DNA of 55,519 bases from a virus: positions 1-55,519 of the IMG/VR virus record IMGVR_UViG_3300010401_000041. One strand, 5' to 3'. This document shows positions 9,042 through 32,216 of this stretch, in pieces. The notes under the pieces were generated by a model. It worked only from the letters and a program-made list of their open reading frames with translations. It was not told the origin of the DNA and did not search any database. Positions within the stretch are counted from its first letter, which is position 1, and each line of letters opens with the position of its first letter. A program made the position numbers and the translations under genes.

Positions 9042-9383
9042 ATGAAACTTATTTTATCTTGTTTATTGCCACTGATGTTTTCTGCTTGTGTTTCCAGCAA
9101 GAAAATGGCTTCTACTATGGATTCATGGATGGGATCATACAAGTATGAATTGGTTCAGCAATGGGGTGCACCGGACAAGATAGTTCCCGATGAAAACGGC
9201 GGTGAAATCCTAATCTACTCAAACAGGGTGTATGCCCAACTAAGTTCAGGCGCAACCGTTGATTACTATCTTTACCGGATGTTATATGCAGACCCTAATG
9301 GGAAACTTTATCATTGGTTTTGGAAGAAAAGCCCCAATCCACCCGAACGAATTGATGTAAGAATGTTAGTAACGTATAAATAA
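9042..9383 (+). CDS. Phage-encoded lipoprotein, BamE/SmpA-like layout
   Basis: The protein starts with a short lipoprotein signal, MKLILSCLLPLMFSAC, with C16 as the likely lipidated residue. The mature part begins with a helix (MDSWMGSYKYELVQQWGAPDKI), then NGGEILIYSNR and further strands, as in small outer-membrane lipoproteins of the SmpA/OmlA (BamE-like) type common in Bacteroidota. It would be exported during infection and could alter the envelope, for example to block a second infection. That role is inference. Confidence 0.7.
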   Translation: MKLILSCLLPLMFSACVSSKKMASTMDSWMGSYKYELVQQWGAPDKIVPDENGGEILIYSNRVYAQLSSGATVDYYLYRMLYADPNGKLYHWFWKKSPNPPERIDVRMLVTYK

Positions 9384-9392
9384 ATCAATCGA

Positions 9393-9731
9393 ATGGCAAC
9401 AGTGAAAAACTTTTTCAATCCCTTAGAGGACAGAATTTTGTTAAGAGTAAAAAAAGAAACAGAACCCAAGAAAACAGAAACGGGGCTATACGATCTTTCT
9501 AAAAAAGAAACAGAGATGGCAACGGTTTATGCCGCTGGTATCGGTTGGTACGCAAGAGAAACAGGTAATTTTGTCCCTGCATATCTAAGCGCGGGAGATG
9601 TTGTCGTAATTGGCAAAGGTGCAGGTTTACCTATTGACATTGAATTGCCAGACGGATCAATGGAAGAAATGAAATTGCTAAGAGAAGGAGATGTGTTGAT
9701 ATTGGTAAGCAAAAAAGAATCAACAGATTAA
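9393..9731 (+). CDS. GroES-like co-chaperonin
   Basis: The 112 residues match the Cpn10/GroES pattern in order: PLEDRILLRVKK at the start, a mobile-loop region with TETGLYDLS where GroES has its glycine-rich loop, ATVYAAGIG as the family's 'V.AVG' strand, LSAGDVVVIGKGAG as the 'VGD.V.F' strand, and LLREGDVLILV as the C-terminal 'I.E.DILA'. The length is close to the roughly 97-residue host protein. Phage co-chaperonins such as T4 gp31 replace GroES on host GroEL so that the capsid protein fits the cage. I infer the same role here. A second, longer GroES-like gene follows 36 bases downstream. Confidence 0.75.
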   Translation: MATVKNFFNPLEDRILLRVKKETEPKKTETGLYDLSKKETEMATVYAAGIGWYARETGNFVPAYLSAGDVVVIGKGAGLPIDIELPDGSMEEMKLLREGDVLILVSKKESTD

Positions 9732-9740
9732 GAATTTTGT

Positions 9741-9774
9741 TATATTTTTATTGCCAAATATCCAACTTTGGCAA
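9741..9774 (+). promoter_or_regulatory. Promoter-like box and start-masking hairpin before the second GroES-like gene
   Basis: TATATTTT (9741-9748) resembles the TAnnTTTG -7 box with one mismatch. It is followed by a perfect hairpin, TTGCCAAA (9751-9758) with TTTGGCAA (9767-9774) around an 8-base loop. The right arm contains the TTG start codon (9768-9770), so the structure could limit translation. Confidence 0.5.
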
Positions 9775-10610
9775 AGCCACGTCCTTTAAATCAGGTACTT
9801 CTAACAATCCCGCAAGCACTTACAGAGGAATTAATTACCGATTCCGGGCTTAATCTTTACATCGATGCTTCATACAACAAGCATTGGCAGTGCGCAGTTA
9901 CGGCAGTTATCGCCGATTTACCTCTTAAGGTTCCATCACAACACAAATACATTTTCGATAATCTAAAGGTCGGCGACGAAGTAGCAATCAGCTATCGAAT
10001 TGTCGCGGATTTTACTTTTGGCAGCGATTCAGGCCAATTCATTCAGGCGACTGAAGATAACCCCCATGTCAGGGAATTCGTAAACGGGCGAGGGGAGTGG
10101 GTGAAAGTTTACGCTCTCCCAAAAAGATCGGGGCTTCCGGGGATTATGTGGGTCGCGACGTACACAGATAGCAAACGTCAATTTATTGATGGGGTTCAGG
10201 GTGACGAAAGCGAAGTTGAGCGCTGGTTAAGCCAGTTCCCGTTTGGGAAAACAGATGTCTATAAATTCAACAATTACTTTGAGTTTGAGGGAAAGGATTA
10301 CTGGAAAGCCGACCTTGACGATATTTTTGCAAAAAAAGTAAAAGGGCATTGGGTTGCGGTGAGCGACCGAATTATTTGTAAGCCCATAGAAGAAAAGGTT
10401 CCTGATTCGATGTTAATTGGTGAACACAAAGGACATAATGTAAAAGTTCGCTATGAAGATCGCGGTCGGGTAATGACAGGTGGAAAATCAAAAGGAATAA
10501 AAAAAGATAACGTTGTGTCATTCGATCAAAGACATCTCGAAAAATATACATTCGACAATAAAGAATTTTTCCTTATCAATGAAAAACTTGTAAACGGCAC
10601 ATGGCAATAA
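9768..10610 (+). CDS. Protein with two GroES-like domains, 280 residues
   Basis: The start codon is TTG. The C-terminal 85 residues follow the GroES pattern closely: VSDRIICKPIEE, then a loop, RGRVMTGG, IKKDNVVSFDQ and NKEFFLINEKLVNGTW. The N-terminal 90 residues read as a second, more diverged copy (PLNQVLLTIP, a loop with SGLNLYID, TAVIADLP, LKVGDEVAISY). About 80 residues of unrecognised sequence lie between. Tandem co-chaperonin domains could bridge neighbouring GroEL subunits or act with the single-domain protein at 9393. Alternatively it is a structural protein that reuses the barrel. Its stop overlaps the following connector gene. Confidence 0.6.
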   Translation: MAKPRPLNQVLLTIPQALTEELITDSGLNLYIDASYNKHWQCAVTAVIADLPLKVPSQHKYIFDNLKVGDEVAISYRIVADFTFGSDSGQFIQATEDNPHVREFVNGRGEWVKVYALPKRSGLPGIMWVATYTDSKRQFIDGVQGDESEVERWLSQFPFGKTDVYKFNNYFEFEGKDYWKADLDDIFAKKVKGHWVAVSDRIICKPIEEKVPDSMLIGEHKGHNVKVRYEDRGRVMTGGKSKGIKKDNVVSFDQRHLEKYTFDNKEFFLINEKLVNGTWQ

Positions 10611-11251
10611 GGAATATAAATAATCTTTATGATTTCTTTCGCGACTTGGTTCGCAAGGAACGCGGGGCATTTGTATCAATTCCACAATTCAATGCAAATC
10701 TTGATGCGGGGCAACTTGACGCAATCGAAGAGTGGTTCGCTCCCTACGGAGAAAATCAGCAATTGCACGACGCATTAAGGCTAATAAGGGTATATTACCA
10801 GTTCACGAGCGATCCCGCTGGTTTTGTGACACAGCCAGACGATTATCTTCATATACTTGGGCAACCGTTTACAGTAGCAGGAAGTTCGGTGAATCGAATA
10901 AACTTTTGTAATGAAGATGAAGTCCCGTTCGCATTGACAAGTCAATTAAGACCCGTTTCTGATTCATACCCGATTGCGATTGATACCTCAACCGGGTTTA
11001 GCATCTACCCGCAAAAAACACAAGTTGGATTCTTCAATTATCTAAGACGCCCGGCAACACCTAAACTTGCTTATACGCAAGTAGGTAGAGTGATTACTTA
11101 TGACGCAGCCAATAGTGTTCAGTTAGAATTTTCTGATGCGTATATAAATAATATTTTAGCGAAAGCATTAATTTATGCCGGGGTCTACATGAATGAAAAA
11201 GATATTACGCAGTACGCGGAAGTTTATAATCAACAAACAAAAGTGCCGTAA
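10601..11251 (+). CDS. Putative head-tail connector protein, 216 residues
   Basis: The N-terminal part (NNLYDFFRDLVRKERGAFVSI...) and the stretch LRLIRVYYQFTSDPAGFVTQ then PDDYLHILG resemble connector-region structural proteins of Bacteroidota phages, which often carry 'P.dY.hllg'. The rest is beta-rich. It heads a tight run of virion genes that leads to the muzzle protein, which supports a connector role. The exact place in the virion is not known. Confidence 0.6.
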   Translation: MAIRNINNLYDFFRDLVRKERGAFVSIPQFNANLDAGQLDAIEEWFAPYGENQQLHDALRLIRVYYQFTSDPAGFVTQPDDYLHILGQPFTVAGSSVNRINFCNEDEVPFALTSQLRPVSDSYPIAIDTSTGFSIYPQKTQVGFFNYLRRPATPKLAYTQVGRVITYDAANSVQLEFSDAYINNILAKALIYAGVYMNEKDITQYAEVYNQQTKVP

Positions 11252-11254
11252 TAA

Positions 11255-11914
11255 ATGCCACAAACCAGCAAAAAATTAATTAGCGACCAAGTTTTATACC
11301 GGCTAAGCGGCGGTCGGCCTGACTCTGGATTCCCAATAGACGAACGTGATATTTGGAAAGCGATTGACCAAAAGATTAATGCTCAATTTAAACTGCATTA
11401 TTTAGATACGACATTGCCTTCAGGGGAAACCATACCTGAAAACACAATGATTGCAACCTATGAAAACATCGAAGTAACAGCGACTATAAACGGCAAGTCA
11501 AAATCAATATTGCCCGTCATCCCCATTTCAATGCCAAAAAACATTGGCATTTATATGGTATATGATCCAGCTTACCCCGACAGACCATTTATCCCTTTGC
11601 AAAGAGGACAGGGGTCTTTGTTAAAAGCGGATAGTTTGCTAAGTAACATGATGGGGCAAATATCGTATGAGCCAAAAAATAATTATGTGGTTTATGGTAA
11701 CGACATTACTTTATTAGGCGTTACAAGTGTGACAATGGAACTTTGTGTGTTTGATATGTCTCAATACTCGGTAACCGATTATCTGCCAGTTCCAAGTGAT
11801 TATGAAGAAAGAATTGTGAAGGAATTATTGGCAGAATTTTCTGTTGTAACGCCAGAGACAGGCTTAATAAATAATTTCTCAACAGTTGGGCAAAATGTAC
11901 CGATTAAACAATGA
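11255..11914 (+). CDS. Putative virion protein of the connector region, 219 residues
   Basis: An N-terminal helical stretch (KKLISDQVLYRLSGGRPDSG...DERDIWKAIDQKINAQFK) is followed by a beta-rich domain and a helical C-terminus. The N-terminus resembles the first part of adaptor-type proteins that dock under the portal. It is 3 bases after the previous gene and overlaps the next by 4. I cannot name the family. Confidence 0.55.
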   Translation: MPQTSKKLISDQVLYRLSGGRPDSGFPIDERDIWKAIDQKINAQFKLHYLDTTLPSGETIPENTMIATYENIEVTATINGKSKSILPVIPISMPKNIGIYMVYDPAYPDRPFIPLQRGQGSLLKADSLLSNMMGQISYEPKNNYVVYGNDITLLGVTSVTMELCVFDMSQYSVTDYLPVPSDYEERIVKELLAEFSVVTPETGLINNFSTVGQNVPIKQ

Positions 11915-12687
11915 CAACTATAAGTCTTGATAGCATAGTTAAAAACATTTTAATGAAGCGGAAATATCCGTTCCATTACTATATAGAATTTCTTGTATCG
12001 GCAAAGGACTGTTTGCGTGAACTTACATTCGATAATTTTGAAATAGTACGATATAAAGTACTTACACTTAATAGCAACAACGCGCTGCCAATGCCTAACG
12101 ACTATCAGGATGTTACAGGCGTATATGTGAGAAATGGGCAGTATTTAATACCATTAGTAGAAGACGATAGTTTAGACCTTGTTCCTAATTACGATTCAAA
12201 TTTCGATATTCAACCGTACTCGCAAGGTGTTGCATCCACAACAGGAGAGGCTAACCAAATTGTATATTACAATGGACTCCTATCTCCGTACTGGTATTTG
12301 AACAACTGGAATGAATTTGGAGAAAACTTAGGTCGTCAATTTGGTGGCGTAGGTGCGTTGCCAGATACTTACCGTGTGAACAAAGCTAGGAATGAAATCA
12401 AGATAAACGAGAACCTTGCTAATCTTGAATATGTCCTCGAATATATTTCAAATGGTATGGATGCAGATTCAGCTACCCACATTGATGGGTACGCCCAAGC
12501 AACAATCGAAGCGTATTGTATGTGGCAATTCAAAGAAAATAACCGTACATACGGAGTAGGAGAAGCCAAGACAGCAGAGCAATCATATATCAAGGAAAGA
12601 CAAATATTGATAGCCAGATTGTCGGACTTGACAATAGATAGATTAAAACGAATCGTTCAGATAAACAGCATAGGTGTGAAATACTGA
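11911..12687 (+). CDS. Ring/adaptor protein (crAss-like tail ring type)
   Basis: This 258-residue protein has an N-terminal helical domain (SAKDCLRELTFDNFEIVRY), then ALPMPNDYQDVTGVYVRNGQ, a signature I recognise from ring/adaptor proteins of crAss-like and related phages. A tyrosine-rich beta region (YYNGLLSPYWYLNNWNEF) and a long C-terminal helical domain follow. Such proteins form rings between portal and tail hub, like P22 gp4 or T7 gp11. The position upstream of the muzzle gene fits. Confidence 0.65.
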   Translation: MTTISLDSIVKNILMKRKYPFHYYIEFLVSAKDCLRELTFDNFEIVRYKVLTLNSNNALPMPNDYQDVTGVYVRNGQYLIPLVEDDSLDLVPNYDSNFDIQPYSQGVASTTGEANQIVYYNGLLSPYWYLNNWNEFGENLGRQFGGVGALPDTYRVNKARNEIKINENLANLEYVLEYISNGMDADSATHIDGYAQATIEAYCMWQFKENNRTYGVGEAKTAEQSYIKERQILIARLSDLTIDRLKRIVQINSIGVKY

Positions 12688-12968: not shown

Positions 12969-13226
12969 ATGGCAGTCACGGATTTAACATTACCGAAACC
13001 AATGGTTGTAATCAGGCAAGTAGATAGCTTGCTGGGATTGCAGTATGCTGGGTCTAAAATGAAGTCTGCTATCATTGATAACATTTATGAAACATCTGAC
13101 TTGAACAGTGTTGGAGATATTGTAGTATTTAATTCAACACAAGGAGAAAAATTTCAATACGGCAGTACAAACTATATTTTAATTGACGAAAAATACATCT
13201 TTGGTAACGAAGGTGCGCCAACATGA
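12969..13226 (+). CDS. Small virion-region protein, possible GroES-like barrel
   Basis: This 85-residue beta-rich protein has a C-terminal half SVGDIVVFNSTQGEKFQYGS then NYILIDEKYIFG. It echoes the 'VGD.V.F...G......LI.E..I' pattern of GroES-type barrels. The N-terminal half is less clear and the likeness may be chance. It overlaps the muzzle gene by 4 bases, so it is probably made in step with that protein. Confidence 0.5.
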   Translation: MAVTDLTLPKPMVVIRQVDSLLGLQYAGSKMKSAIIDNIYETSDLNSVGDIVVFNSTQGEKFQYGSTNYILIDEKYIFGNEGAPT

Positions 13227-16200
13227 TAACAGAGAAAAGAAATTTTCTGGAAGGAATGAACGGAGACGTTTCCCAGCGATTATTAGGAATGGGGCAAAGC
13301 CTTAACCTAATGAATTGTCGCGTGGCCGTTACCGAACACGGACGGGATTACAGGGTGGAAAATGTTCCGGGGACATTGCTCGTTGAACAAAATGTATTTC
13401 CGCCATACGGGACAAACCAAAACATAGGGAGTACTGTGGATTTGGCGAGGAATAGACTTATTTATTTTAACTACAACACGGCAGGGGATCATGGTATTTA
13501 TTGCTACGTAAAAGATACCGGCATTACCTACGCCGTATTGTATGACAGTCAGGTTATTGGAGGGCTTAATTTCTCAAAGACTTCAAGAATAGACAGAAAC
13601 GCAAAAGTTATTGGAGATTTATTATATTGGACAGACAATAACAACGAACCAAGAAGAATAAATATTGAAGCAGGAATAAAGATGAATCATGCTTCATACG
13701 TTACCGACGTGCTTCCATATTCATATCCCATGAACCAGTCGGTAATAACTGTAATCAGAAGGCCTTTTGAGGTTTGCCCATCTGTTCAGCCTTTGTTGGA
13801 TGGCACAAGAGAAAATTTCTTAAACGATTTTTCGGGAGAATTTGCCGTTAGGTTCGTATATCGGGATAATGAGCGGTCTGTAATGACGACAAATAGTTCG
13901 TTTGTAAACTACCGCACAAATATTAACGACTTTAGCTTTATAACAACAGCCAACTTTATAAGAGTTGCATTGCCAAATTCGTTTGTGGGAATTGTAAGCG
14001 GAAACTATTTTATTGAACAAGATGTTCAGATCATCCAGATTGCGGTACGTTATAACAATACGCCCGGATATTTTGTAATAAAAGAATGGAATAAATCTAA
14101 CCCTGCCGACTTAGCAGAGATTATTGCTTATAACGCCGTAACGGGATCACTGTCTTATGATTTTTATAATGACGTTAGGGGCGTTCCCATAAGCGACGCA
14201 GATTCGGTAAAGCCAGCCGATAGTGTGCCAATAAAAGCAAAAACGGTAGAGCTTGGGATTGATAGATTGTTTTTCGCTAATTATATTAAAGGCTATGACG
14301 CACCAGCCATTACTTCTTTGACAGGAACAACTACTCAACAAACTTTTCCTGACGGGTTCCCAAGAACTATATTCAAATCCTACGCCACCTATCAAATAGG
14401 TATAAGGTTCAGGGATAATTATAAGAGGCAATCCACAGTCGTCACGAACGACAATCTTATTATTGAAATACCAGACAGGGGTGATTATAATGATAAGACC
14501 TTTACAACGGCGATTAATTGGGCGCTATCCAACGCAAACGCATTAAACGAAATCCCCGACTATGCCTACTACGCAGATTTAGTAATTACCAAGAATTTAA
14601 GGACAAGATTTTTTCTTCAGTCCTTAGCTAATGGGGTTCAATATGCCATAAAAGATGCTGATGGATCGATTACTTATCAGAACACCTACACAGGATCGGT
14701 ATTCGGGTTAGCTATCGGGTCAACGACTCTTTTATCTACGGGTATGTTCCCGTCCTTCGCTGAAGGTGATATGGTTAGAATATATCCAGACGGGGCAACG
14801 ACTTTCTATACGTTACGGGTTATTCAGATTGAACCAGATTATATCATTGTTCGTCCGGTGAATCTTGGTGACCTGACAAGTATTTCTTTTTTGTTTTATG
14901 AATATTTTACACCGTATAAAACGTCTGCCAGCGAATCTTTTTACACAGTTGGGCAAACAGTTCGGATAAACAATCCCGGAACAAATTCACGTCAATACAA
15001 CACATTGAGCGGATCGTTTACGGGAGATGTTACTTATGGCGTACGGGTAACGACGATATTTTCTATTTCTTATTTCACAGAGAATATGTCGCCCAATGAT
15101 GATCATTGGATGAACTGGTATGGAATTTACGGCGAAGCAAATATCGTGTCGCTACTTGGACAAGAGTTAAAAGAAAACTTTGTTCAATGGAGCAATACAA
15201 TCATCAAAGGAACCCAAACGAATGGGTTAAGCACTTTTGATGCGCTTGACGAAAAAGTTCTACCATTCTCAATGGGCGCTGTTAGCAAACTTCAGGTAGC
15301 GAGTAAGATACAGGAAGAAGGAAATATAATGCTTGCTATTGGCGAAAAATCAACGGTGTCTATGTATCTATCCGAAGTTCAGGTAGTCGGGGCATCTACA
15401 AACGCATTTCTTGCCTCTTCGCCGGGAGTTATCGGAACAGTTAATAACCTGAAAGGCAATTATGGTACGATAAATCCAGAAAGTGTTATTGAATATCTTG
15501 GACTTGTTTTCTGGTTCGATATGCTTAACGGAACCTTCGTTCAATATTCTGCCGAAGGTTTAGAGCCTGTTAGTAATTATGGAGAGATGAGATTTTTCCA
15601 AAACTATGCGCAAAAATATTTAGTCAGTTCAACGGCAGGAATAGATACAAGAAACGGGTTTCATCATATCCCTACCTGTATTGACCCTTTCCATAAAGAA
15701 GTCATCTGTAGCTTACCATCACTAGTGCAAGATGGGGTTGACCTTCCAAGCTATTCGGTTGTTCCCATTTACGCAGTGTCAGTACTCAACAGGTTTGATA
15801 TATCTGATTACTTAGCTAAGACAATGACTTTCCAGTTTGGTAAAAATAAATGGGGCAGTAATTTTGAATTTTTAGGAGAATGGTATGACTATATTCAGAC
15901 AACTATGTACGGGTTTAAAAACGGGGCATTGTATATTCATAACCACGAAGATGCAGATTACAATCAATTCTATGGCCCACATTATCCGGTAAGAATTTGC
16001 TGTACCGCCAACCTGAACCCATCCGCGTTAAAAGACCTGTTCAACATTGCAATAGAAAGCAACGCTGCACCTGATTTTACAGTAGCATACGCAGATTATC
16101 CCAACGTGCAAATAACAGACCTTACAGTAGATGACTATACAGATCAGCAGGGGCAATTTTATGCAGAGTTCTTTAAGGATAGGTTATCCCCGAACGTAAG

Positions 16201-16369
16201 CGGAACGCCAGATGAAAAATTATATATTGGCGATGGGATCACTGACATAGCCATTAAGATAATGCTTGAATTTCAACAATATTCAAATTTATTTTACTGT
16301 AACTTTGTTGACATAGGGTACGATATTTCAAAGGGGCAGCAAGTGATTGCAAGCCCGACTAACAAATAA
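13223..16369 (+). CDS. Muzzle / tail stabilisation protein (crAss-like), 1048 residues
   Basis: The opening ITEKRNFLEGMNGDVSQRLL and especially GDLLYWTDNNNEPRRINIE (about residues 131-149) are the signature I associate with the large stabilisation or muzzle protein of crAss-like and related Bacteroidota podoviruses. That protein forms the distal tail hub. The rest is long and beta-rich, as expected for stacked beta domains. It sits directly downstream of the ring genes and upstream of the internal proteins. No enzymatic motif is evident. Confidence 0.75.
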   Translation: MITEKRNFLEGMNGDVSQRLLGMGQSLNLMNCRVAVTEHGRDYRVENVPGTLLVEQNVFPPYGTNQNIGSTVDLARNRLIYFNYNTAGDHGIYCYVKDTGITYAVLYDSQVIGGLNFSKTSRIDRNAKVIGDLLYWTDNNNEPRRINIEAGIKMNHASYVTDVLPYSYPMNQSVITVIRRPFEVCPSVQPLLDGTRENFLNDFSGEFAVRFVYRDNERSVMTTNSSFVNYRTNINDFSFITTANFIRVALPNSFVGIVSGNYFIEQDVQIIQIAVRYNNTPGYFVIKEWNKSNPADLAEIIAYNAVTGSLSYDFYNDVRGVPISDADSVKPADSVPIKAKTVELGIDRLFFANYIKGYDAPAITSLTGTTTQQTFPDGFPRTIFKSYATYQIGIRFRDNYKRQSTVVTNDNLIIEIPDRGDYNDKTFTTAINWALSNANALNEIPDYAYYADLVITKNLRTRFFLQSLANGVQYAIKDADGSITYQNTYTGSVFGLAIGSTTLLSTGMFPSFAEGDMVRIYPDGATTFYTLRVIQIEPDYIIVRPVNLGDLTSISFLFYEYFTPYKTSASESFYTVGQTVRINNPGTNSRQYNTLSGSFTGDVTYGVRVTTIFSISYFTENMSPNDDHWMNWYGIYGEANIVSLLGQELKENFVQWSNTIIKGTQTNGLSTFDALDEKVLPFSMGAVSKLQVASKIQEEGNIMLAIGEKSTVSMYLSEVQVVGASTNAFLASSPGVIGTVNNLKGNYGTINPESVIEYLGLVFWFDMLNGTFVQYSAEGLEPVSNYGEMRFFQNYAQKYLVSSTAGIDTRNGFHHIPTCIDPFHKEVICSLPSLVQDGVDLPSYSVVPIYAVSVLNRFDISDYLAKTMTFQFGKNKWGSNFEFLGEWYDYIQTTMYGFKNGALYIHNHEDADYNQFYGPHYPVRICCTANLNPSALKDLFNIAIESNAAPDFTVAYADYPNVQITDLTVDDYTDQQGQFYAEFFKDRLSPNVSGTPDEKLYIGDGITDIAIKIMLEFQQYSNLFYCNFVDIGYDISKGQQVIASPTNK

Positions 16370-16985: not shown

Positions 16986-18440
16986 ATGATTAATGTTTCC
17001 GATTTTATCATCGATCCACAACAGGCAACAATGTCTGAAGGCATTAAACACTATGCTGCGACTGCCCAACACAATAAAGAAATTGCCTATCAAAGACACA
17101 AAGAGCAAGAAGCCGAACAATGGAGAAAGCTAAACCTCATTCAGGATTTAACCGATTTATCCAAGCACCAAACCAGCGACGATATTGCCAATGCCGTAGG
17201 TAATCAACACGCAAATGATATTTTTAAAAAGTATACCGCAGCCGCAGGGCAAATGTCGCCAGCAGAATTACAATACAATATTTCAAAAGACATGCAGTCG
17301 GTGACGAATGGACTGGATGCAATGAAGAACGAGTTAGCGCAATCAGATCAAATGATCGGGGCATTAAAAACGAAATTTCCAAGTTTAGATATTACCTCTT
17401 TAGCGAAAGATTCAAGGGCAGATATTTTGGGAAGAAGGTTAAAAAATGCGAACGAATTTGCGAACCCATTAGAAGTGCCACAAAGCACCATAAACTATGG
17501 CGATCCAGATTTTTTGAGTAGATACGTTACTGGAAATAAAGGCATCACCGAAGAAATAGTGAATCCTAAAGGCGCAGATGACGTAAGCGTTTATAAAGGT
17601 TCACCGAATCAATACACAAAGTATAGTGCCAAAATCCCATACTGGAAGAAACCAAGTTATGATCCGGCAAAGTTAAATAACGGGTTCATTACAGATAAGA
17701 GCGAACCGTCCTTGCAAATAAAAGCAACTACACTGCCAGCGGCATCTTTGCCATCTTCAAACGGAAAGCCATTTAAAATTGTTGACGAAGATGTTTATAA
17801 ACGATTCACCAACGATGAGGGGAAAAATATAGAATTAATAAAATCAACCAGAGACGAATATCCGGAGTACGACAAGTTCAATAGTCAGGAAAAAGAATAC
17901 GCCAAACGCAACGTTCTGTATAAACATTTGGAAGCGTTAGACCAAAGTAATTTTCACCCTACCGATGTACACGCGCCATCTGCCAGCCTTCTTAAATTAT
18001 ATGCCGGTGGTAGTGGAAGCGGAAGTTCTAAAGTAGAACCAGAGATCAGAGATATTTATAAAGAAGTAAGCGGTAAGGTTGGCGAAGAGGGAACGCCAAT
18101 GAATATCATGAGTGCAGGGGCGCAAAAGACAATATTGGAGTATGCTAATAAATTAACTGGCGAAGGAATGACACAGGGGGATGTGATGTTGAAAAAAGCT
18201 GCCGATGGGACAATAAATATTGTTAGGACAGATGATAATAAAGTTATTGCACCAATTGATTTCGGAGATTTAAATGTTCCGTCGCAACCAAGTGTAAAAG
18301 AAAAAAGGGCTGTTATCAATGAAACCAATAGGCAGTATAAGTACAATGGTAAAACATACACACACTCTCAAATTGAAAAAGCTGCGTCTCAATCAGGATT
18401 AAGTATTGAAGATTATATTAAAAAAGCTGGACTTAAATGA
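16986..18440 (+). CDS. Putative internal virion protein, 484 residues
   Basis: This hydrophilic, helix-rich protein has long charged stretches and no transmembrane segments. The first 160 residues are alpha-helical and glutamine/lysine-rich. The tail ends in a lysine-rich helical repeat region (YKYNGKTYTHSQIEKAASQSG) that looks like a small C-terminal binding module. Its stop overlaps the start of the 1841-residue gene by 4 bases. Context suggests an ejected protein; I do not recognise the family. Confidence 0.55.
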   Translation: MINVSDFIIDPQQATMSEGIKHYAATAQHNKEIAYQRHKEQEAEQWRKLNLIQDLTDLSKHQTSDDIANAVGNQHANDIFKKYTAAAGQMSPAELQYNISKDMQSVTNGLDAMKNELAQSDQMIGALKTKFPSLDITSLAKDSRADILGRRLKNANEFANPLEVPQSTINYGDPDFLSRYVTGNKGITEEIVNPKGADDVSVYKGSPNQYTKYSAKIPYWKKPSYDPAKLNNGFITDKSEPSLQIKATTLPAASLPSSNGKPFKIVDEDVYKRFTNDEGKNIELIKSTRDEYPEYDKFNSQEKEYAKRNVLYKHLEALDQSNFHPTDVHAPSASLLKLYAGGSGSGSSKVEPEIRDIYKEVSGKVGEEGTPMNIMSAGAQKTILEYANKLTGEGMTQGDVMLKKAADGTINIVRTDDNKVIAPIDFGDLNVPSQPSVKEKRAVINETNRQYKYNGKTYTHSQIEKAASQSGLSIEDYIKKAGLK

Positions 18441-21400
18441 CCACTCACACATATAAAAATGAGGAAGGGTTACCAATACTAAATAGTGGTAATGGCGATG
18501 ATATTGGCGAACTTCCGGTATTTAAAGATGATTCTGTAAAAAAAAAAGAAGCGCAAGAACACCTTGGTGGCGCATTGGCTACTACTGGCGAAAATATTGT
18601 AAAGAGTACCGTATCAAATTACAAGCCCCAATCAAAATTATCAAAAGACGACAAGGATAAGTTATCCCAATTTTTACTTGGCAGCAAGCCCGACGTTCGG
18701 GATAGAACAGCGGATGCGTTGAAGGCAGTTGAAAATACACATCCTGCGCAACAAGTTACAGTTAAGAAGTCTTCGGATATAGTAAAGCCACTGACAGAAA
18801 AAGTAGACAAGGAAGCCCGTAATACTATTAATGATATAATGTATAGCGAAGGGGACGCATGGAAAGACCCGGTTAAAGCTATTGATGACAAGGCTAAAGC
18901 GGCAACAAACATAGATGAATTTACCGCACTAAACCGGGCGGCAGACCTGACTACTCAAAGTCTTGCACCAACCGGGTACGATGCTATGAGGGTTCTAAAT
19001 AGTAGTTTGTGGGGGCAAGCTAAAGAGGATAATCAAACAGCTAATTTACTGAAAGCAAAAGCGAAGGAGTATAACGACGATGTTGCACCACTTCGTGAAA
19101 TCAATATTGAACAGCCAATCGGGGAACACAATCAATACGCAGCTAGTGTGTATTCCGATCAAATGAAAAACGCTTTTATAAAGGCGTACGCAAATAAAAA
19201 TACAGATTTCAAAAATCAATTGGAATCTGCCGGTATAGATATTAACGACCCTTTTTTGTATAAAAGAATTGGGGATGCTAAAGCCGGTCAAATTACGGAT
19301 GAGTATCTGCACAATAAAAATGTAGAAGATTTCCTTCAAAAAGAGAATAGTAATTTACTCCCAGCCTATCAACATGCTCAAAATAAATTACTGGAAGATC
19401 ATCCCGATTATGGAGTGCCAAAGATCGCAAATGATTTAAGCCGGGAATTGCAGAAAACCGGGTACAATAACAGGGATTTTATCTTCAATTTCGATACAGA
19501 AAGTTCAAGGGAGTTTGTCGATCACATGGCGCGTCAGCGGTACAAAGACAACCCGGAGTTATTAAAATTTTACGAAGATCACATAAGCGAAATCCATGAC
19601 AGTATGGATAAGCCATCCTTCTTTGAAGGTGTGGCATCTGGTATTAAAAATGTTTATAGCGGCATAGGTAATACGGCAAGCACTCTTTTTCAATCAAAAG
19701 CAGAAGATATAAAAGATGAATGGAACAAAGAAGCAACTAATGTAAGCGCAGACCCGGAAGGATTAATGAAACTCATTAGAAACTCTGGTCACGCGGTTGG
19801 ATTTGTTTCTGGTCTTATGGCTGGCGGTGAAGTAGCGCAAGGGACGAAGTTAGCAGGAACACCGGCAGGCGCACAGCGTTTAATGGTAGGCACAAGTGTT
19901 TTTGGCAATGAGTTGAAAGAAGCCGAAATGAAATATAAAAGCCCTGTTAAGGCATGGGTAAATGCGGGACTAAATACAACTGCATTTGTAATGCTGCAAG
20001 ATATATTCCCTGCTTCCAAAGTGTCTAAAGTTTTTAATGAAATAAAACCAGAATTAAATAAGATAGCCGAAAATCTTTCATCAGGTGCAATTACAAAAGA
20101 AGTTGCCAGAGAGAACGCAACTTCTGTGCTTTCTAAGGCTGTTGATTTTGGGAAGAAAGCGTTCAAGCAGAACGTAAAGACATCCGCTGAAATGACCGCC
20201 TTAACAGGTATGAAGCAGGGGATGGATACGATAATGGGACTGGATGAACAAACATATGATAAATACCATCCTGATGGCGAATTAGAAGATACGTTTAAGA
20301 CAATGTTTTTGAGTAACGCGCCTATTGCTGGATTGTCTGCTTATGGTGAAATTGGCGCAAAGAACAAAGAAATGGAGAACAGCGTTTTTGAGGCCGTTAA
20401 TAATCCAAAAAGATTTGAAACAGCCATAGAAAACTTAAAAGTAAAAGACCCTTCTGTAAATATAGATGAGATCAGGGGTAATTTTGAATTTGCAAAATCA
20501 CTGAAAGAAAAACTGGATGCTGAGGGGATTGACCCGATTAATCAAAAAAGATTCTTAGTAGAAGCGTTGAAAGAAAAAGTAAACAAAGAGAATCTGGCTA
20601 AACTTTCAGAATCAAACATAACTCGCAGAACACAAAAAGAAATAAGAGAAAGCCAAGATATTCAGGATAAGATATTGAACGGTGAAGATGTCGTGGGTGA
20701 AGAGCAGCGCAAAGAAATGCCGCCTGAAGAAAATGAAATAATTTCAAGGGTAAACAAGGTTGCCAGCGAAGGAATAGTTAACACGTTAAAGGTTGCCGAT
20801 ACGGAACAGGATAAGATTAAATTTTTGAAAGATCAATCTTTAGATGTTCCCTCTTCGTTGAAAGATCAATTAGGGGGCGACGAAAATCTGACTACTGATA
20901 TTATTTCTCAAAACGATAAATCTGATATTGAATCCAGCATATCTAAGTATGAAAAAGAGTTAAAGAACCCCGATTTGTCCGATCAGAGAACAGAGGAAAT
21001 TGACAGACACTTATCGCTTCTGCATAAGGGGTTGGATAAAATAAAAACAGATGAAACAGCCATAGAACCTGAAGCAAATACAGAAAGCAATGAACCGGCC
21101 AAAGCAAGTGAAGCGAATGAACCTACTCTTACAATTGATGAAGGAGCAGAAAAGCCGCCAACCAATCCAGAAGAAAAAGACCTCCCATTCGGGCGGCAAG
21201 AATTAACTGGTATTGCTCACGAATTACAACAAGGAAGGGCGTATGATATTGGAGCAGAAGCCCCGCAACGAGGCGAAGGGGTGTCTGTAGAAGAGTCTAT
21301 TGTACATGGTAATTCTTTGCTTGCAGACGGTGGAGATGCTTTTAAAGCAGCAGAAAAATTTAAAACCGATAAGAAGATTTCATACGATGACCTTGCATTG

Positions 21401-23962
21401 GTTCGTGCTCAATATGCAAAGATGTGGAAAGATACTAATGAGGCAACTGATAAATTTGGCATTGGAAGTCCCGAAGAGAAAGCGGCAAAAGAGCGTGAGG
21501 TAAAATGGAGAGATGAAGTAGTTAAACCAATGCAAACCGAATGGTCAAAGATTGGTGTTGCTCAACAAGGATTACAGGACATTGACACCGGGTCGTTTGC
21601 TTCATTGCGCAGATCATTAGAAAGTAGAACAAATGCGCCAGCAAAACCAGAGCAAGTTGAAAAACTTAAAAAATTCGCCACTGAGAATAAAAAATTAAAA
21701 GATGAAGTAGATAAACTTCAGGAGAAATTAATAAAGGCAAAAGAGGACACCACTGAAAAATCAGAGAAAAAAAATGCTACAAAATCTGCTAAAGATTTGG
21801 CAGAGCAAATAAGAAAAGGGAAACTGCATAAGCCCGGTTCTTTTTCTGCTGCCAGTCCTGCATCTGTTATTTGGGATAGCGCGGTAGAAATAGTCGCTAA
21901 ATCAGTGGAGGCCGGCGGTAAAATAGCTGATGCTATCTCGGAAGGACTAAAATATATAAAAGAATCCGATTGGTATAAATCATTAAGTCCCGATAAAAAA
22001 GAACAGGCAGAGAAAGAATTTTCCGACTATCACCTTGAAGATTTAGGAGGTAAAATTGATGATGCTAAAAGAATTTCCGAAAAATTAGTAGATAAAAAAG
22101 GCAATGAGTTTACGGCAGATGAAGCAAAAGAAATATGGGATTATGCAAAGCAACACTATTTAGAAACGGGTACACCATACACGGAAATGATTGGCAAAGT
22201 TGCCAATGATCTGGGGTTAACATGGAGACAAGTTGCAAATGCGATCACTACCCCAAAAACTAAACCCATCACTGATGAGATATGGAAAAAACAAAGTGAG
22301 TTAAGTAAAAGCAGGAACGCCACAAAAAATTATCTTGATAATAATGCTGGCGGTAAGGCTGGTAATGTTTTGAAAAAAGTTTCAGGTGTATTTCGTGGGG
22401 TATCCGTGTTTGGTCACGGAGGGATATTTGTAGGAACCCACGCAGCCCCAACTTTATTTCAGCCTACTACATGGAAATCAACTATACCGGCTTTCTTTAG
22501 AGGATGGAAATATGCTTATGGCAATACCGCTAAGTATGAGCAAGCGATGGCAGAACTAAAAAGCGAACCAAACTATATATTAGCGCAACGTGCAGGATTG
22601 AAGAATAATCCAGATCGTATAAATATTGAAGAGTTCCAAAAGTCTCAAAAATTCTTAGGTAAATTAGGAGATGCGGGAGAGAGAGGCTTTAATGCCATCA
22701 AAGTACTTCGTCAGGATTTATTCGACTATCATTTCAATAAATTATCCGAAGAAGATAAGAAGAACCCTGACGTTGCTAAATCTATTGCCCATCTTGTGAA
22801 CAATGCAACGGGAGCAACGAATTTAAATATACCAAACTGGATCAATGAAGTAACATTTGCCGGTGGAATGGAAGCGGCAAGGTGGGGCAAGTATACGCGT
22901 AACCCATTAAAAGCTACAGAAATCGCGCTTAAAGCCATTGCAAAACCAAGTTCGGTTAAGCCCGAAGAAAGAGTATTCGCAAAAGTTTGGGCAAGTCGGG
23001 TAGGTCAGCAGATTGGATTTTATGCGGGTTCCTTAGTTGCTAATGCGGCGATTCAAAATACAATAAATCCAAATAACCCGGTTAACCTTACCAATCCCAA
23101 TAAATCCGATTGGCTGAAGTTTAAGTTTGGAGATATGACGGTAGACCCGACTTCAGGAATGAGAGGGGTAGCAAGTTTTATTTACGGAATTGGTAAAATG
23201 CCGTTTCAAAGTCAGAAAGAATTGAAAGGTGACACAAGGTTAGAAGCTGCTGGCAAAAAAACATTTGGATATGCGAGAGGTAAACTATCTCCGTTTTATT
23301 CAACAGTTGTTGACTTTTTTACCGGGACTGATTTCAATGGTAATCCACTGCCAACTTCATCTGACGAACCAAAAGGCGCAAAACATAAGGTATCTTGGGG
23401 CGAGTACTTATGGCAGAAAGCACCGTTGCCAGTTGCCGAAGCAGTGCATAATATTTATGAATCAGCACATGAAAACGGATCGGATGACGTATCAACAAGC
23501 AACATCTTAAAAGGTATTATGACAGGGTTATTATCTGGAAGTACTGGTTTTAGGGTTGGAGAAACAAAAGAGAAGCCAGCGAAGTTTACAGATAATGAGC
23601 TTAACTCAAAAGAAATAAAATACTTTACAGATAAAGGGTTGGAAATGCCTAACACGTCTCCAACCTCGGAGACAATAAAAGATAAGGCGACAAAAACAAA
23701 AAGGAAACTTAGTGATTACCCGCAATCAGTGATTGATCAGTACAGCGAAACGCATAAAAAGTATTTGAGGAATGAATTGAGCCATATTGTATCACATAAA
23801 TATGTTTTTATGGATGACTACGGGGATATTTCACTTAGTCCGGGATCGGGAAAGAAAAGAAAAAATCTTGACGATCTTACCAAAGAACAGTTAGAACAAA
23901 TATTACATTTGGCTCAATCAAGTGCAACAGAAAAAACAAAGAAAAAACTTTTTAAACACTAA
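18437..23962 (+). CDS. Giant internal virion protein with polyvalent-type C-terminal module, 1841 residues
   Basis: This is the largest protein in the window. The N-terminal third is hydrophilic and helical. Around residues 445-460 there is a glycine-rich amphipathic stretch (GHAVGFVSGLMAGGEVAQG) that could insert in a membrane. A strong coiled coil lies near 1073-1110. From about 1310 to 1680 the order NNATGATNLNIPNWINEVTF, DPTSGMRG, KLSPFYSTVVDFFTGTDFNG and PLPVAEAV matches the C-terminal module I know from large polyvalent or internal proteins of podoviruses. It is probably packaged and ejected with the DNA, forming part of a trans-envelope conduit. No protease or polymerase motif is visible. 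Confidence 0.65.
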   Translation: MTTHTYKNEEGLPILNSGNGDDIGELPVFKDDSVKKKEAQEHLGGALATTGENIVKSTVSNYKPQSKLSKDDKDKLSQFLLGSKPDVRDRTADALKAVENTHPAQQVTVKKSSDIVKPLTEKVDKEARNTINDIMYSEGDAWKDPVKAIDDKAKAATNIDEFTALNRAADLTTQSLAPTGYDAMRVLNSSLWGQAKEDNQTANLLKAKAKEYNDDVAPLREINIEQPIGEHNQYAASVYSDQMKNAFIKAYANKNTDFKNQLESAGIDINDPFLYKRIGDAKAGQITDEYLHNKNVEDFLQKENSNLLPAYQHAQNKLLEDHPDYGVPKIANDLSRELQKTGYNNRDFIFNFDTESSREFVDHMARQRYKDNPELLKFYEDHISEIHDSMDKPSFFEGVASGIKNVYSGIGNTASTLFQSKAEDIKDEWNKEATNVSADPEGLMKLIRNSGHAVGFVSGLMAGGEVAQGTKLAGTPAGAQRLMVGTSVFGNELKEAEMKYKSPVKAWVNAGLNTTAFVMLQDIFPASKVSKVFNEIKPELNKIAENLSSGAITKEVARENATSVLSKAVDFGKKAFKQNVKTSAEMTALTGMKQGMDTIMGLDEQTYDKYHPDGELEDTFKTMFLSNAPIAGLSAYGEIGAKNKEMENSVFEAVNNPKRFETAIENLKVKDPSVNIDEIRGNFEFAKSLKEKLDAEGIDPINQKRFLVEALKEKVNKENLAKLSESNITRRTQKEIRESQDIQDKILNGEDVVGEEQRKEMPPEENEIISRVNKVASEGIVNTLKVADTEQDKIKFLKDQSLDVPSSLKDQLGGDENLTTDIISQNDKSDIESSISKYEKELKNPDLSDQRTEEIDRHLSLLHKGLDKIKTDETAIEPEANTESNEPAKASEANEPTLTIDEGAEKPPTNPEEKDLPFGRQELTGIAHELQQGRAYDIGAEAPQRGEGVSVEESIVHGNSLLADGGDAFKAAEKFKTDKKISYDDLALVRAQYAKMWKDTNEATDKFGIGSPEEKAAKEREVKWRDEVVKPMQTEWSKIGVAQQGLQDIDTGSFASLRRSLESRTNAPAKPEQVEKLKKFATENKKLKDEVDKLQEKLIKAKEDTTEKSEKKNATKSAKDLAEQIRKGKLHKPGSFSAASPASVIWDSAVEIVAKSVEAGGKIADAISEGLKYIKESDWYKSLSPDKKEQAEKEFSDYHLEDLGGKIDDAKRISEKLVDKKGNEFTADEAKEIWDYAKQHYLETGTPYTEMIGKVANDLGLTWRQVANAITTPKTKPITDEIWKKQSELSKSRNATKNYLDNNAGGKAGNVLKKVSGVFRGVSVFGHGGIFVGTHAAPTLFQPTTWKSTIPAFFRGWKYAYGNTAKYEQAMAELKSEPNYILAQRAGLKNNPDRINIEEFQKSQKFLGKLGDAGERGFNAIKVLRQDLFDYHFNKLSEEDKKNPDVAKSIAHLVNNATGATNLNIPNWINEVTFAGGMEAARWGKYTRNPLKATEIALKAIAKPSSVKPEERVFAKVWASRVGQQIGFYAGSLVANAAIQNTINPNNPVNLTNPNKSDWLKFKFGDMTVDPTSGMRGVASFIYGIGKMPFQSQKELKGDTRLEAAGKKTFGYARGKLSPFYSTVVDFFTGTDFNGNPLPTSSDEPKGAKHKVSWGEYLWQKAPLPVAEAVHNIYESAHENGSDDVSTSNILKGIMTGLLSGSTGFRVGETKEKPAKFTDNELNSKEIKYFTDKGLEMPNTSPTSETIKDKATKTKRKLSDYPQSVIDQYSETHKKYLRNELSHIVSHKYVFMDDYGDISLSPGSGKKRKNLDDLTKEQLEQILHLAQSSATEKTKKKLFKH

Positions 23963-24675: not shown

Positions 24676-25026
24676 ATGCCAGAAATTAATTACAAACAAT
24701 TATACGAAGCGGAAAAAGAAAAGGTAATAGCTTTTGAAAAAAAATGGGATGCTTTGGAATTGCAAGGCAAAGCAAAGTTGTATTATTCCCTTAATCGGAA
24801 TATGAGCGATCTTTCGGATATGCTTGATGGAATTGAATTGAAGAAGGTGAACATGGATGATCCGAAAGACAAAACAATGGAACGATTAAAAATGATATGG
24901 GCTTCCGTTAAGCCACTTGTTGAAACAATTAATTTAATAAGGGAAGCGTCTGGTATTACCGGAGATGAGAATAAGGACACTGAAAGAAAACCATTTGTCA
25001 ATACAATAGCACAAGATAGAAAGTAG
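24676..25026 (+). CDS. Candidate small terminase subunit (by position), 116 residues
   Basis: This helical, charged 116-residue protein (MPEINYKQLYEAEKEKVIAF...) directly precedes the large terminase, whose GTG start overlaps its TAG stop. Small terminases are often short helical proteins at this position, so this is the best candidate. No helix-turn-helix is clear to me, and another packaging-related role is possible. Confidence 0.45.
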   Translation: MPEINYKQLYEAEKEKVIAFEKKWDALELQGKAKLYYSLNRNMSDLSDMLDGIELKKVNMDDPKDKTMERLKMIWASVKPLVETINLIREASGITGDENKDTERKPFVNTIAQDRK

Positions 25027-27086
25027 TGTCATTAGCGGTAAACATATACGGAACGCTTGTAGATGTCCCTGAAAACGAGGGATTTTTTGATGTTGAAAAT
25101 TGGGGAACCGATAACCCAAAAGAACAGTTTTGGCGCAGGAAAGATTTGCCAAGTTTTTTTGAACAGGTTGAATATGATAAAGACGGGAATGTTTTATTAA
25201 CAAAAGAACAGGAAGTATACGCTAAAAGAGAAGTAGATAGGTGTAAAAATGGGTTTTATTTTCTTAGTAACGGTAAACTCACTTATATAACCGGGAAACA
25301 TTATTTTTATCTAGCGTGGTGGAAGTTGGAAGATGACATATACCCAGAGTATAGGGATTCCGATAGGAGATATTTTCTTTTTTTAAATCACTGGGAGTGC
25401 ATTTTATGGTGCTTAGGAATTTTAAGAGGAAAGAAGCGTCGTGAAGGTGCAAGTTCGCAGGCAACATCCAATCTTATATATGAATGTATTTTCTTCAGGA
25501 ATAGCGTATGCGGGTTAGTCAGTAAAACTCTACAAGACGGCAAAAAAACTTTCACTAACATGGTTGCCTTTGGATATAGGCAGTTGCCTGTTTTCCTAAA
25601 ACCAAAACAATTAAATAATAAAGATTCTGTTTCTGAATTAATTTTTGCCCATAAATCAGTTAATACAAAAGACGGGAAAGGTCAAACAATTGACACGGAT
25701 ACTGGTCACAGATCATCTGTAGACTTTCGTGCGCCCGGTAAGAATACATACGATTCTGGTAGACTAAGTCGCGGCCTTTTTGATGAAGGAGGAAAGTGGG
25801 ATAGCGAAAATCCATTCTCTGAATTTTTATCTATTGTCAGCAAAACAATGGTTAAAGGTGCGAAGCGTGTTGGGTTCATGGAGTGTCCGTCAACCTGTAA
25901 TGAAATGACTAAAGCAGGCGGCGCACAATACAAAATAGCATGGAACAACGCCAATCAATTTGAATTAAAAGATGGAAGAACGGTAAACCGTCTCGTAAGA
26001 TACTTCTCTCCTGCTTATGATGGATTCTATGGATTTATTGATAGATATGGAATGTCCGTCATTGACCCTCCCGACGAAGACCAATTTAATTATTTGGTTG
26101 AAAACTATGTCGGTGTGGGCGATCTTACCGAAGAAGATATACGGTTAGGCGCAAAAGCATATTTACTTAAAAAAAGAGAAGGACTAGAAGGGGCTTTGCT
26201 TGAAGAAGAAATCCGCATGAATCCATTTGACGAAAGAGAAATGTTTCTTTCAAAGAATGGGAATTGTCATTTTGATGCAGTGCTATTAGCTGAATTATAT
26301 GACAGGGCTAAGTCAATGGAAAAAGAAGTATTGGAGTGGGGTAATTGGGTTTGGAAAGATGGAATTCCTTTCTCAGAAGCTATTTGGGAGTCCTGCAATC
26401 CTGCGCACGCCCGTTGGACGCGCCCCAAACTTTTTAAAATTCCAGAAGGAGATAAAGTAGAAAAAATAGGTGAATTATATACGCCAATTAACCATATACA
26501 ATTTATAAGCGGGTGTGATCCATTTCAAAATTCAATACTAGAAAGCGGGGTGGGATCGAAGGCTAGTTCCGGCATCATAAACAGATATGTAGACCAAGAG
26601 AATGACGATATTTTTAATCGAATGATAGTTTCAAAATACCATGCACGCCCTAAAATGGCTGAATTACTTCACATGGATATGGCATTACAGTGCTTTGCTT
26701 ATGGTTGTCAGATTTTGATTGAAAGTAAAATGGATGGAGGTATGAGGAAGTTTTTTATAGATAATAATCTGGAAGCCTTTTTATTAAGACTTCCGGGGAA
26801 AGAAAACTATGGGATTGATCCAAACTCAGATAATAAAGCGTTGTTGGTAAATTTATGGGAATCTTATATTTTAAGAGAAGGTAAAGCTGGTAAAATGATA
26901 TATGCAGACGACGTGATTGATGGAGAGAAAGACGGGTTGGTTAAGTTTGATGTAAATGAAACAGAGCCTTCAGATAATGTCATGGGGTTGGGCTGGACGC
27001 TTGTAGCAGACTATTACAAGAAAGTAAACTTCAGAAAAAAAACAACCACATCCGTAGAGGATTATTTTCCGAGGTATCAAAATTGA
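25026..27086 (+). CDS. terL: Terminase large subunit
   Basis: The 686-residue packaging motor has a GTG start. The ATPase domain carries a Walker-A-like GKKRREGASSQAT (135-147), as in terminases of Bacteroidota phages, and a Walker B ending LFDE (D253, E254). The RNase-H-like nuclease domain shows FISGCDPF (D498) and ILIESKMDG (E565), which fit the first two metal-binding acids. The C-terminus is hydrophilic. Neighbours are a candidate small subunit upstream and, unusually, the sugar-modification cassette between it and the portal gene. Confidence 0.85.
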   Translation: MSLAVNIYGTLVDVPENEGFFDVENWGTDNPKEQFWRRKDLPSFFEQVEYDKDGNVLLTKEQEVYAKREVDRCKNGFYFLSNGKLTYITGKHYFYLAWWKLEDDIYPEYRDSDRRYFLFLNHWECILWCLGILRGKKRREGASSQATSNLIYECIFFRNSVCGLVSKTLQDGKKTFTNMVAFGYRQLPVFLKPKQLNNKDSVSELIFAHKSVNTKDGKGQTIDTDTGHRSSVDFRAPGKNTYDSGRLSRGLFDEGGKWDSENPFSEFLSIVSKTMVKGAKRVGFMECPSTCNEMTKAGGAQYKIAWNNANQFELKDGRTVNRLVRYFSPAYDGFYGFIDRYGMSVIDPPDEDQFNYLVENYVGVGDLTEEDIRLGAKAYLLKKREGLEGALLEEEIRMNPFDEREMFLSKNGNCHFDAVLLAELYDRAKSMEKEVLEWGNWVWKDGIPFSEAIWESCNPAHARWTRPKLFKIPEGDKVEKIGELYTPINHIQFISGCDPFQNSILESGVGSKASSGIINRYVDQENDDIFNRMIVSKYHARPKMAELLHMDMALQCFAYGCQILIESKMDGGMRKFFIDNNLEAFLLRLPGKENYGIDPNSDNKALLVNLWESYILREGKAGKMIYADDVIDGEKDGLVKFDVNETEPSDNVMGLGWTLVADYYKKVNFRKKTTTSVEDYFPRYQN

Positions 27087-27092
27087 CTATAA

Positions 27093-27722
27093 ATGTGGAT
27101 TAATTTTTTTTCTAAAATATATCTCGTTAATTTAGCCAAGCGGCGCGATAGATTATTTGAAACCGCCGAACACCTAGAGAAATACGAAATCCCCTTTTCT
27201 TTATTTACAGCGATAGAAAAGCCGGACGGTGCAGAAGGATTGAGAGACACCATGAACCTCATATTTGATGAGGCAATTGAAAATAATTACCCTAATATAC
27301 TAGTACTAGAAGACGATTGTGAGTTTATAAAAGAAAAAATCTGGGTTGACGAGACAATGAATGGTGTAGTAGAACAACTACCAGAAAATTATCTTTTATG
27401 TTATTTGGGAGGACAGGCAACCGGCGGCTATAGTGGCTTCTATTCCGGCAATTTGCTACCTGTTACTAAATATTTTGCAACTCACGCAGTCATGTACTCA
27501 TTACAAGGGATAAAAGAAATAAAAGCAAGAAATCTAGGTTACCCAATTGATAACTGGCTTGTAGATAATATTCAAACACAAGGGAGATGTTATGGAATTC
27601 ACCCGTTATTAGCAAGCCAACGGGCTGGATATTCTGACATAGGGAAAGCGGAAATAAATTGGTTCCCGTTCATAGTCCCAAGACACGAGCAAAAAATAAA
27701 CGAGCTTAATGCAAGACAATAG
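27093..27722 (+). CDS. Glycosyltransferase, GT25-like (LPS type)
   Basis: The N-terminus KIYLVNLAKRRDRLFETAEH and the later PNILVLEDDCEFI are hallmarks of GT25-family (LPS biosynthesis) glycosyltransferases. The 'EDD' motif should bind the metal and nucleotide sugar. The protein has 209 residues. It is the first gene of the cassette, 6 bases after terL. It could decorate virion proteins or alter host surface sugars. The target cannot be told from sequence. Confidence 0.8.
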   Translation: MWINFFSKIYLVNLAKRRDRLFETAEHLEKYEIPFSLFTAIEKPDGAEGLRDTMNLIFDEAIENNYPNILVLEDDCEFIKEKIWVDETMNGVVEQLPENYLLCYLGGQATGGYSGFYSGNLLPVTKYFATHAVMYSLQGIKEIKARNLGYPIDNWLVDNIQTQGRCYGIHPLLASQRAGYSDIGKAEINWFPFIVPRHEQKINELNARQ

Positions 27723-28416
27723 GAAAATAAGTATTGTAATCCCAAACTACAACCGGACTGACTTATTGATTGAGTCATTTGAAAAGGTATATTCCGACGA
27801 TAGAGTTTCTGAAATAATTGTTTCGGATGACTTTTCCGAAAAATCAGTTTATTATGAATTGATGGATTTGTTTGAGTTAATGCCAAAGGTGAAGATGTTC
27901 CGGAATCAATTCAATCAGGATTGCTACATGAATAAGCACACGGCAATGGAGTTGGCTACTAACGAATTTTGTATCTTGGCCGACTCTGATAATATTTTCG
28001 AGCCAGATTATATAGACAGGGTATATAGTTTTCCTGTATGGGATAAAAATACAATCTACGCCCCGTCATTTGCGAAACCTACGTTTAATTACACAGAATA
28101 TAATGGAGAAGTTATAACAAAAGAAAACGTTTCTTCGTTTATTGATAAGCCAATGTTTGAAACGGCTTTGAATACAAGTAATTTCTTCATAAACAGAAGT
28201 CAGTACTTAAAAACATGGGACGGGGCGGTTGATCCTGTAACATCCGACAGTATATATTTTGTCTATTGTTGGTTAAATGCTGGCAATAAATTCCATATTG
28301 TAGATGGGATGGAATATTTTCACAGAGTCCACGACGACAGCCACTATAAAATAAATGTAGCCAGAACGCCAGAAGGGTTCCATGATTCAATTTTAAATAA
28401 ATTAAGGCAGTTATGA
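27709..28416 (+). CDS. Family 2 glycosyltransferase
   Basis: This 235-residue protein has the GT-A start KISIVIPNYNRTDLLIESFE, then SEIIVSDDFS and FCILADSDNIFEPDY, the DXD-type metal site of GT2 enzymes. It is a stand-alone catalytic domain without membrane anchor. It overlaps the previous gene by 14 bases and the next by 4, so the cassette is tightly coupled. Confidence 0.85.
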   Translation: MQDNRKISIVIPNYNRTDLLIESFEKVYSDDRVSEIIVSDDFSEKSVYYELMDLFELMPKVKMFRNQFNQDCYMNKHTAMELATNEFCILADSDNIFEPDYIDRVYSFPVWDKNTIYAPSFAKPTFNYTEYNGEVITKENVSSFIDKPMFETALNTSNFFINRSQYLKTWDGAVDPVTSDSIYFVYCWLNAGNKFHIVDGMEYFHRVHDDSHYKINVARTPEGFHDSILNKLRQL

Positions 28417-29823: not shown

Positions 29824-29827
29824 AATA

Positions 29828-30969: not shown

Positions 30970-30973
30970 CAGC

Positions 30974-32209: not shown

Positions 32210-32216
32210 ATTATCT

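Follow-up and report, generated by a model that had tools for sequence, protein, structure and literature searches.

Adjacent single-domain and predicted tandem-barrel GroES-like genes in a virus that probably infects Bacteroidota

Two neighboring genes at positions 9393 to 10610 of a viral DNA raise the question of whether a virus may carry lids of its own, in two different formats, for the chaperonin of the cell that it infects. The window analyzed here is the whole of virus record IMGVR_UViG_3300010401_000041 (55,519 bases, classed as linear). No long terminal repeat was found in this record, which may be incomplete. The portal protein of the window is about 24% like those of Flavobacterium, Cellulophaga, Tenacibaculum, and Maribacter phages, among the matches listed, and because of this likeness the host was called as probably belonging to the Bacteroidota.

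The single-domain protein

Both open reading frames reported in the first-pass annotation were recovered on the plus strand, at 9393 to 9731 (112 aa, ATG start) and at 9768 to 10610 (280 aa, TTG start), with 36 bases between them. The first product had been described as a co-chaperonin, which was borne out by a nearly full-length match to the Pfam Cpn10 profile (E value of 2e-9, 37.8 bits against a cut-off of 21.1, profile positions 2 to 90 of 93), together with matches to phrog_3188 (4.2e-8) and, in a sequence search, to solved GroES chains. Twelve GroES models of NCBIfam were also matched, each under its own cut-off. These results establish a single Cpn10 match, and the sequence suggests that the 112-aa product serves as a lid subunit of the ordinary kind. 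The open reading frame just before this gene, at 9042 to 9383, encodes 113 aa and matches phrog_3716, of unassigned function (4.2e-6); judged by eye, its start resembles a lipoprotein signal.

The tandem protein

The C-terminal part of the 280-aa protein matched phrog_13932, labeled "co-chaperonin GroES," at 1.4e-6, and a profile alignment with hhalign placed residues 177 to 274 on positions 90 to 182 of the phage tandem family (E value of 1.1e-6), spanning the junction between the barrels. The second barrel (about residues 194 to 280; 10347 to 10607) and the junction, which together with the end of barrel 1 covers about residues 169 to 193 (10272 to 10346), are thus homologous to this family. 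The match of the same part to Cpn10 was weak (0.0021, 18.5 bits, below the cut-off), no GroES model of NCBIfam matched the protein, and a phmmer search against solved chains found no co-chaperonin by sequence. The homologue on a 25-kb IMG/VR contig (L001) likewise opens with TTG at the aligned position, and its barrel 2 reached 23.6 bits against Cpn10, above the cut-off.

Since the profile alignment begins at residue 177 and crosses the junction, barrel 1 should sit before that residue. Its first part was placed at about residues 8 to 79 (9789 to 10004). Residues 1 to 85 scored 8.0 standard deviations over shuffles against barrel 1 of phi19:3 (0 of 2000 shuffles) and 4.5 against that of Panino (3 of 2000); the scores against phi38:1, ctfjg026, and elemo (0.4 to 2.1) were not significant. 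The L001 homologue reached just 2.3 standard deviations against phi19:3, and the first-barrel profile of the tandem family (65 sequences) did not find barrel 1, giving 0.5 bits where the best of 200 shuffles gave 4.0. From sequence and model, the 280-aa protein would be a two-barrel GroES-like protein for which barrel 2 and the family relation are clear and the support for barrel 1 is uneven. This agrees with the first-pass annotation, where the C-terminal domain was called convincing and the N-terminal one diverged, and with its count of three co-chaperonin barrels in a row, contributed by one single-barrel and one two-barrel protein.

A structural model of the 280-aa protein was built from an alignment of five rows (A7). 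An earlier alignment of 18 rows (A6) had misplaced the barrel junction, and subsets were tested before A7, which was picked since its junction was in register with the hhalign result; this choice could favor the model obtained. The mean pLDDT was 56.7, with low confidence in the mobile-loop region (residues 16 to 42) and in most of residues 77 to 176. At this confidence, the structural check that had been proposed for the locus came out in favor of GroES barrels: the strand order suits two of them, and the top structural match, over residues 5 to 279, was chain Q of 7ekq (Z of 9.7, 155 residues aligned, rmsd of 3.8). This chain is chaperonin 23 (Cpn23), a tandem co-chaperonin of Chlamydomonas, and the match is one at the level of fold on a low-confidence model. 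Barrel 2 alone matched Cpn10 chains with Z from 7.8 to 6.1, and Foldseek with the 280-aa model returned 1wnr at 3.7e-4.

An insert (about residues 80 to 168; 10005 to 10271) sits past the strand after VGDEV and ahead of the final strands of barrel 1, and it faces mostly gaps in alignments with relatives of 180 to 200 aa. It was modeled as part of the whole protein, mostly with low pLDDT, and gave Z of about 3 only, to unrelated chains, a result that carries no information on how it folds.

In GroES, a motif in the mobile loop binds GroEL. At the corresponding place, barrel 1 carries SGLNL (residues 26 to 30; 9843 to 9857), within the loop of low pLDDT. The expression [GSNA]G[ILV]x[LFVI] starts at residue 23 to 26 of barrel 1 in six of seven divergent tandem proteins (those of the window, L001, phi19:3, ctfjg026, elemo, and Panino); in the exception, phi38:1, the motif is in barrel 2 instead. 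It was also present in 79 of 80 IMG/VR tandem proteins, these being the 80 top-ranked among the 540 relatives that a single query retrieved. The expression misses the loop of the 112-aa protein, which reads TGLYD, and those of the single Cpn10s of L001 and ctfjg026, so the motif is of limited value as a test.

The relative L001 and a third GroES-like gene

The same two neighbor genes, coding for 107 and 279 aa, are present in L001, with identities to the window of 49% for the single-domain protein and 61% for the tandem protein. Their matches to phrog_3188 are stronger than those of the window (6.1e-17 for the single and 7e-8 for the tandem protein). L001 was the only relative of the 280-aa protein found in viral_contigs, and the two patterns run against genome_contigs yielded none. 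A terminase query found no relative in viral_contigs, and a capsid protein query found none among phages. The ring-protein query matched the contig of L001 and a distant contig, L093 (21%), in whose list of open reading frames no GroES was seen by eye. L006, which was found through the alignment of the 112-aa protein, has an ordinary single GroES in a different setting. Both candidates were set aside.

An open reading frame overlooked by the first-pass annotation, at 12969 to 13226 on the plus strand, encodes 85 aa and sits between virion structural genes. Its product matched Cpn10 at 0.0013 (19.1 bits, below the cut-off of 21.1, and over positions 59 to 91 only) and phrog_3188 at 0.0012, with the match confined to the C-terminal part. 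Models were built from two sequences, the best of five having a pLDDT of 70.4 and the other four 32 to 49, and co-chaperonins filled the first 16 rows of structural matches (Z of 8.7 to 6.1, with 1p3h at 8.7). When the 85-aa pair was aligned by hhalign with the window's own GroES pair, the result was negative (probability of 0.7%); with five single-domain phage GroES proteins it was 65%. The L001 homologue (86 aa, L001:9180-9440, 34% identity) matched no PHROG at 0.01, and no homologue was found in the other 11 of the 12 records searched. Judged from the model, the 85-aa protein probably has the GroES fold; if this reading is right, four GroES barrels would lie within 3.8 kb.

Single and tandem genes across Bacteroidota phages

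A tandem-domain co-chaperonin paired with a single-domain one had been regarded as not a standard phage arrangement, a view that the searches overturned. The elemo tandem protein retrieved 83 phage records, mostly of Flavobacterium and Cellulophaga phages, with "chaperonin cpn10" or "co-chaperonin GroES" as the annotation in many of them; the ctfjg026 tandem protein retrieved 540 IMG/VR stretches. Among Bacteroidota phages, including Pervagoviridae, Pachyviridae, Elemovirus, and many IMG/VR contigs, phrog_13932, the tandem GroES-like protein, is frequent. Twelve records (the contig of L001, five named phages, and six long IMG/VR contigs) were searched for the three families; since they had been picked for carrying the tandem gene, what they can tell is limited to how often Cpn10 and GroEL accompany it. 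Cpn10 was above the cut-off in all 12, each with a single-domain place, and GroEL was present in 10, being absent from phi19:3 and from the 25-kb contig of L001. The phrog_13932 tandem protein was found in 11, the twelfth, L001, having its 279-aa tandem protein. Together, the 83 phage records, the 540 stretches, and this co-occurrence rule out a pairing unique to the window.

No GroEL was detected in the window, as the first-pass annotation had noted, within the 55,519 bases of a possibly incomplete record. The pairing itself is thus known and recurrent, and what is new is a variant peculiar to the window and L001, made up of the gene adjacency, the barrel 1 insert of about 90 residues, the third probable GroES-fold gene, and the lack of detected GroEL, which counts if the record is complete, those of the window and L001 both being possibly incomplete.

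The phrog_13932 proteins (phi38:1 gp089, phi19:3 gp101, and those of the Flavobacterium elemo phages and Maribacter phage Panino) resemble the 280-aa protein, as it is predicted, in having two head-to-tail barrels, and further in a shared junction, the barrel 1 loop motif in most members, and a gene position close to where the virion-protein genes begin. They have 180 to 200 aa and do not have the insert; length does not define the family, and the 280 aa are a mark of the variant. In their genomes the terminase gene comes next or after one small gene, whereas in the window the tandem gene is followed by a virion structural gene (phrog_14543, 10601 to 11251, plus strand, 5.3e-10) and the terminase lies at 25026 to 27086. 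Further virion structural genes on the plus strand are those at 11911 to 12687 (phrog_13977, 1.1e-16) and, for a large protein, at 13223 to 16369 (phrog_14478, 6.2e-36). In the window, phi38:1, phi19:3, elemoF, Panino, and ctfjg026, the tandem gene opens the row of virion-protein genes or lies close to its start. The phrog_13932 phages also have their single Cpn10 at a different genomic site, where GroEL is usually present too. Kilobases separate the single from the tandem gene in the other 11 records, often with GroEL as the neighbor of the single one; the two genes adjoin only in the window and L001.

In print, "Chaperonin cpn10" is listed as a core protein of Pervagoviridae (PMC8776804), and homologues of GroEL and GroES are reported for Panino (PMC11590407). 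No description of a tandem phage GroES appeared in the parts of the literature retrieved, and PMC7077304 has no chaperonin passage. Nothing in the label "co-chaperonin GroES" tells a reader of these genomes that there are two barrels. Records PP540027, NC_055853, NC_021796, and MW202828, as well as IMG/VR contigs, illustrate that many such phages have their own GroEL plus two kinds of GroES. A protein of 71 to 80 aa, of similar look, precedes the tandem gene in four relatives (L008:19757-19999, L007:20971-21195, L004:11582-11797, and L010:19774-20001), and none was recognized beside the tandem gene of the window.

Proposed function

We consider it fairly probable, taking structure and function jointly, that the 280-aa protein consists of two head-to-tail GroES barrels, being a relative of phrog_13932 enlarged by the insert, and that both genes encode phage co-chaperonins acting as lids on the GroEL of the infected cell. 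They would replace or supplement the GroES lid during the folding of virion proteins. The loop of barrel 1 would bind GroEL, the clients would be capsid or connector proteins, and the insert may alter the chamber or recognize the client. Adaptation to a large capsid protein had been suggested earlier; the open reading frame that matches SU10_MCP has 447 aa, which is not evidently large. A phage lid that works with host GroEL on a capsid protein is known in T4 gp31, with gp23 as its client (PMC3012670). Both gp31 and RB49 CocO are phage-encoded lids, as proposed here, but have a single barrel, and gp31 matched barrel 2 of the model with Z of only 6.1 to 6.3.

Counted in favor of this explanation were the family matches, the junction-spanning alignment, the barrel 1 score against phi19:3, the end-to-end alignment of the model with Cpn23, the loop motif in six of seven tandem proteins, GroEL in 10 of 12 records, the position at the head of the virion genes, the lack of MS/MS notes in phi40:1 (see below), and the T4 precedent. 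Counted against it were the absence of GroEL from the record, the miss of barrel 1 by the first-barrel profile, the motif miss in the 112-aa loop, the low mean pLDDT, and the choice of the model alignment among several.

A sharper form of this explanation, to which we give a tentative minority weight, is a mixed lid like the algal CPN11/20/23, in which three 280-aa subunits and one 112-aa subunit would, by arithmetic and analogy, make one seven-barrel ring and the insert would make the lid specific to phage clients. The adjoining genes in the window and L001 and the presence of both kinds in all 12 records would suit it. So would the chloroplast Cpn10/Cpn20 hetero-oligomers with seven domains (PMC5780408) and the top structural match of the model, which belongs to a complex of this kind as one of its tandem subunits; the chain listing of 7ekq has one Cpn23 and two Cpn20 chains. 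The separation by kilobases in the other 11 records suits separate lids instead, and tandem co-chaperonins work as homo-oligomers too (PMC5780408). Chlamydomonas likewise has tandem and single subunits in one organism; its hetero-oligomer is demonstrated, that of the window hypothetical. The likeness is at the level of fold, and an insert of such size is not reported in the portions of the chloroplast literature retrieved. The CPN11/20/23 heterotetramer was seen on the algal ClpP core (PMC8889267), and a preprint in the references of that paper states in its title that proteolysis is thereby inhibited. A lid that targets another seven-fold machine such as ClpP, or that blocks the host chaperonin rather than aiding folding, nevertheless seems very improbable here, as 10 of the 12 related records carry their own GroEL, which points to folding.

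The tandem protein could instead be a virion or assembly component, its GroES fold having a structural role in the connector or capsid. The tandem gene directly precedes the virion-protein genes, and the third GroES-fold gene lies inside their block. Detection in virions as a structural component only had been named beforehand as the finding that would speak against a lid. In the phi40:1 record, at least 13 genes, with gp085 as a possible fourteenth, bear notes of MS/MS detection in virions, and the tandem homologue gp089, the Cpn10 gp007, and the GroEL gp005 bear none. This is a weak argument against a virion role, because the same is true of gp096, the counterpart of a phi38:1 protein that is labeled virion structural. 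We regard a virion component as unlikely. For phi38:1, a study describes methylated GroEL both in cells under infection and in samples of free virions (PMC13288928); the word GroES is absent from that paper.

Mixed single and tandem lids are known in chloroplasts (PMC5780408), and the phage family has the same two gene types. An extended picture, which we think doubtful, is that Bacteroidota phages own a chloroplast-like mixed seven-barrel lid, with the genes having become neighbors here, GroEL having been lost, the insert being specific to the client, and a third GroES-fold protein recruited into the virion block. The widespread phage family would offer small proteins on which to test the symmetry question, that of an even barrel number on a seven-fold ring, and also the reasons for which phages encode lids themselves.

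Other features of the record

For an open reading frame of 1841 aa, at 18437 to 23962, neither Pfam nor PHROG gave a match at 0.01. A sugar-modifying cluster of about 6.6 kb (27093 to 33709) separates the terminase gene from the portal gene; it encodes glycosyltransferases of families 25, 2, 11, and GT47, along with several methyltransferases, some of them of FkbM types, whereas in the relatives read, the terminase gene is followed directly by the portal gene.
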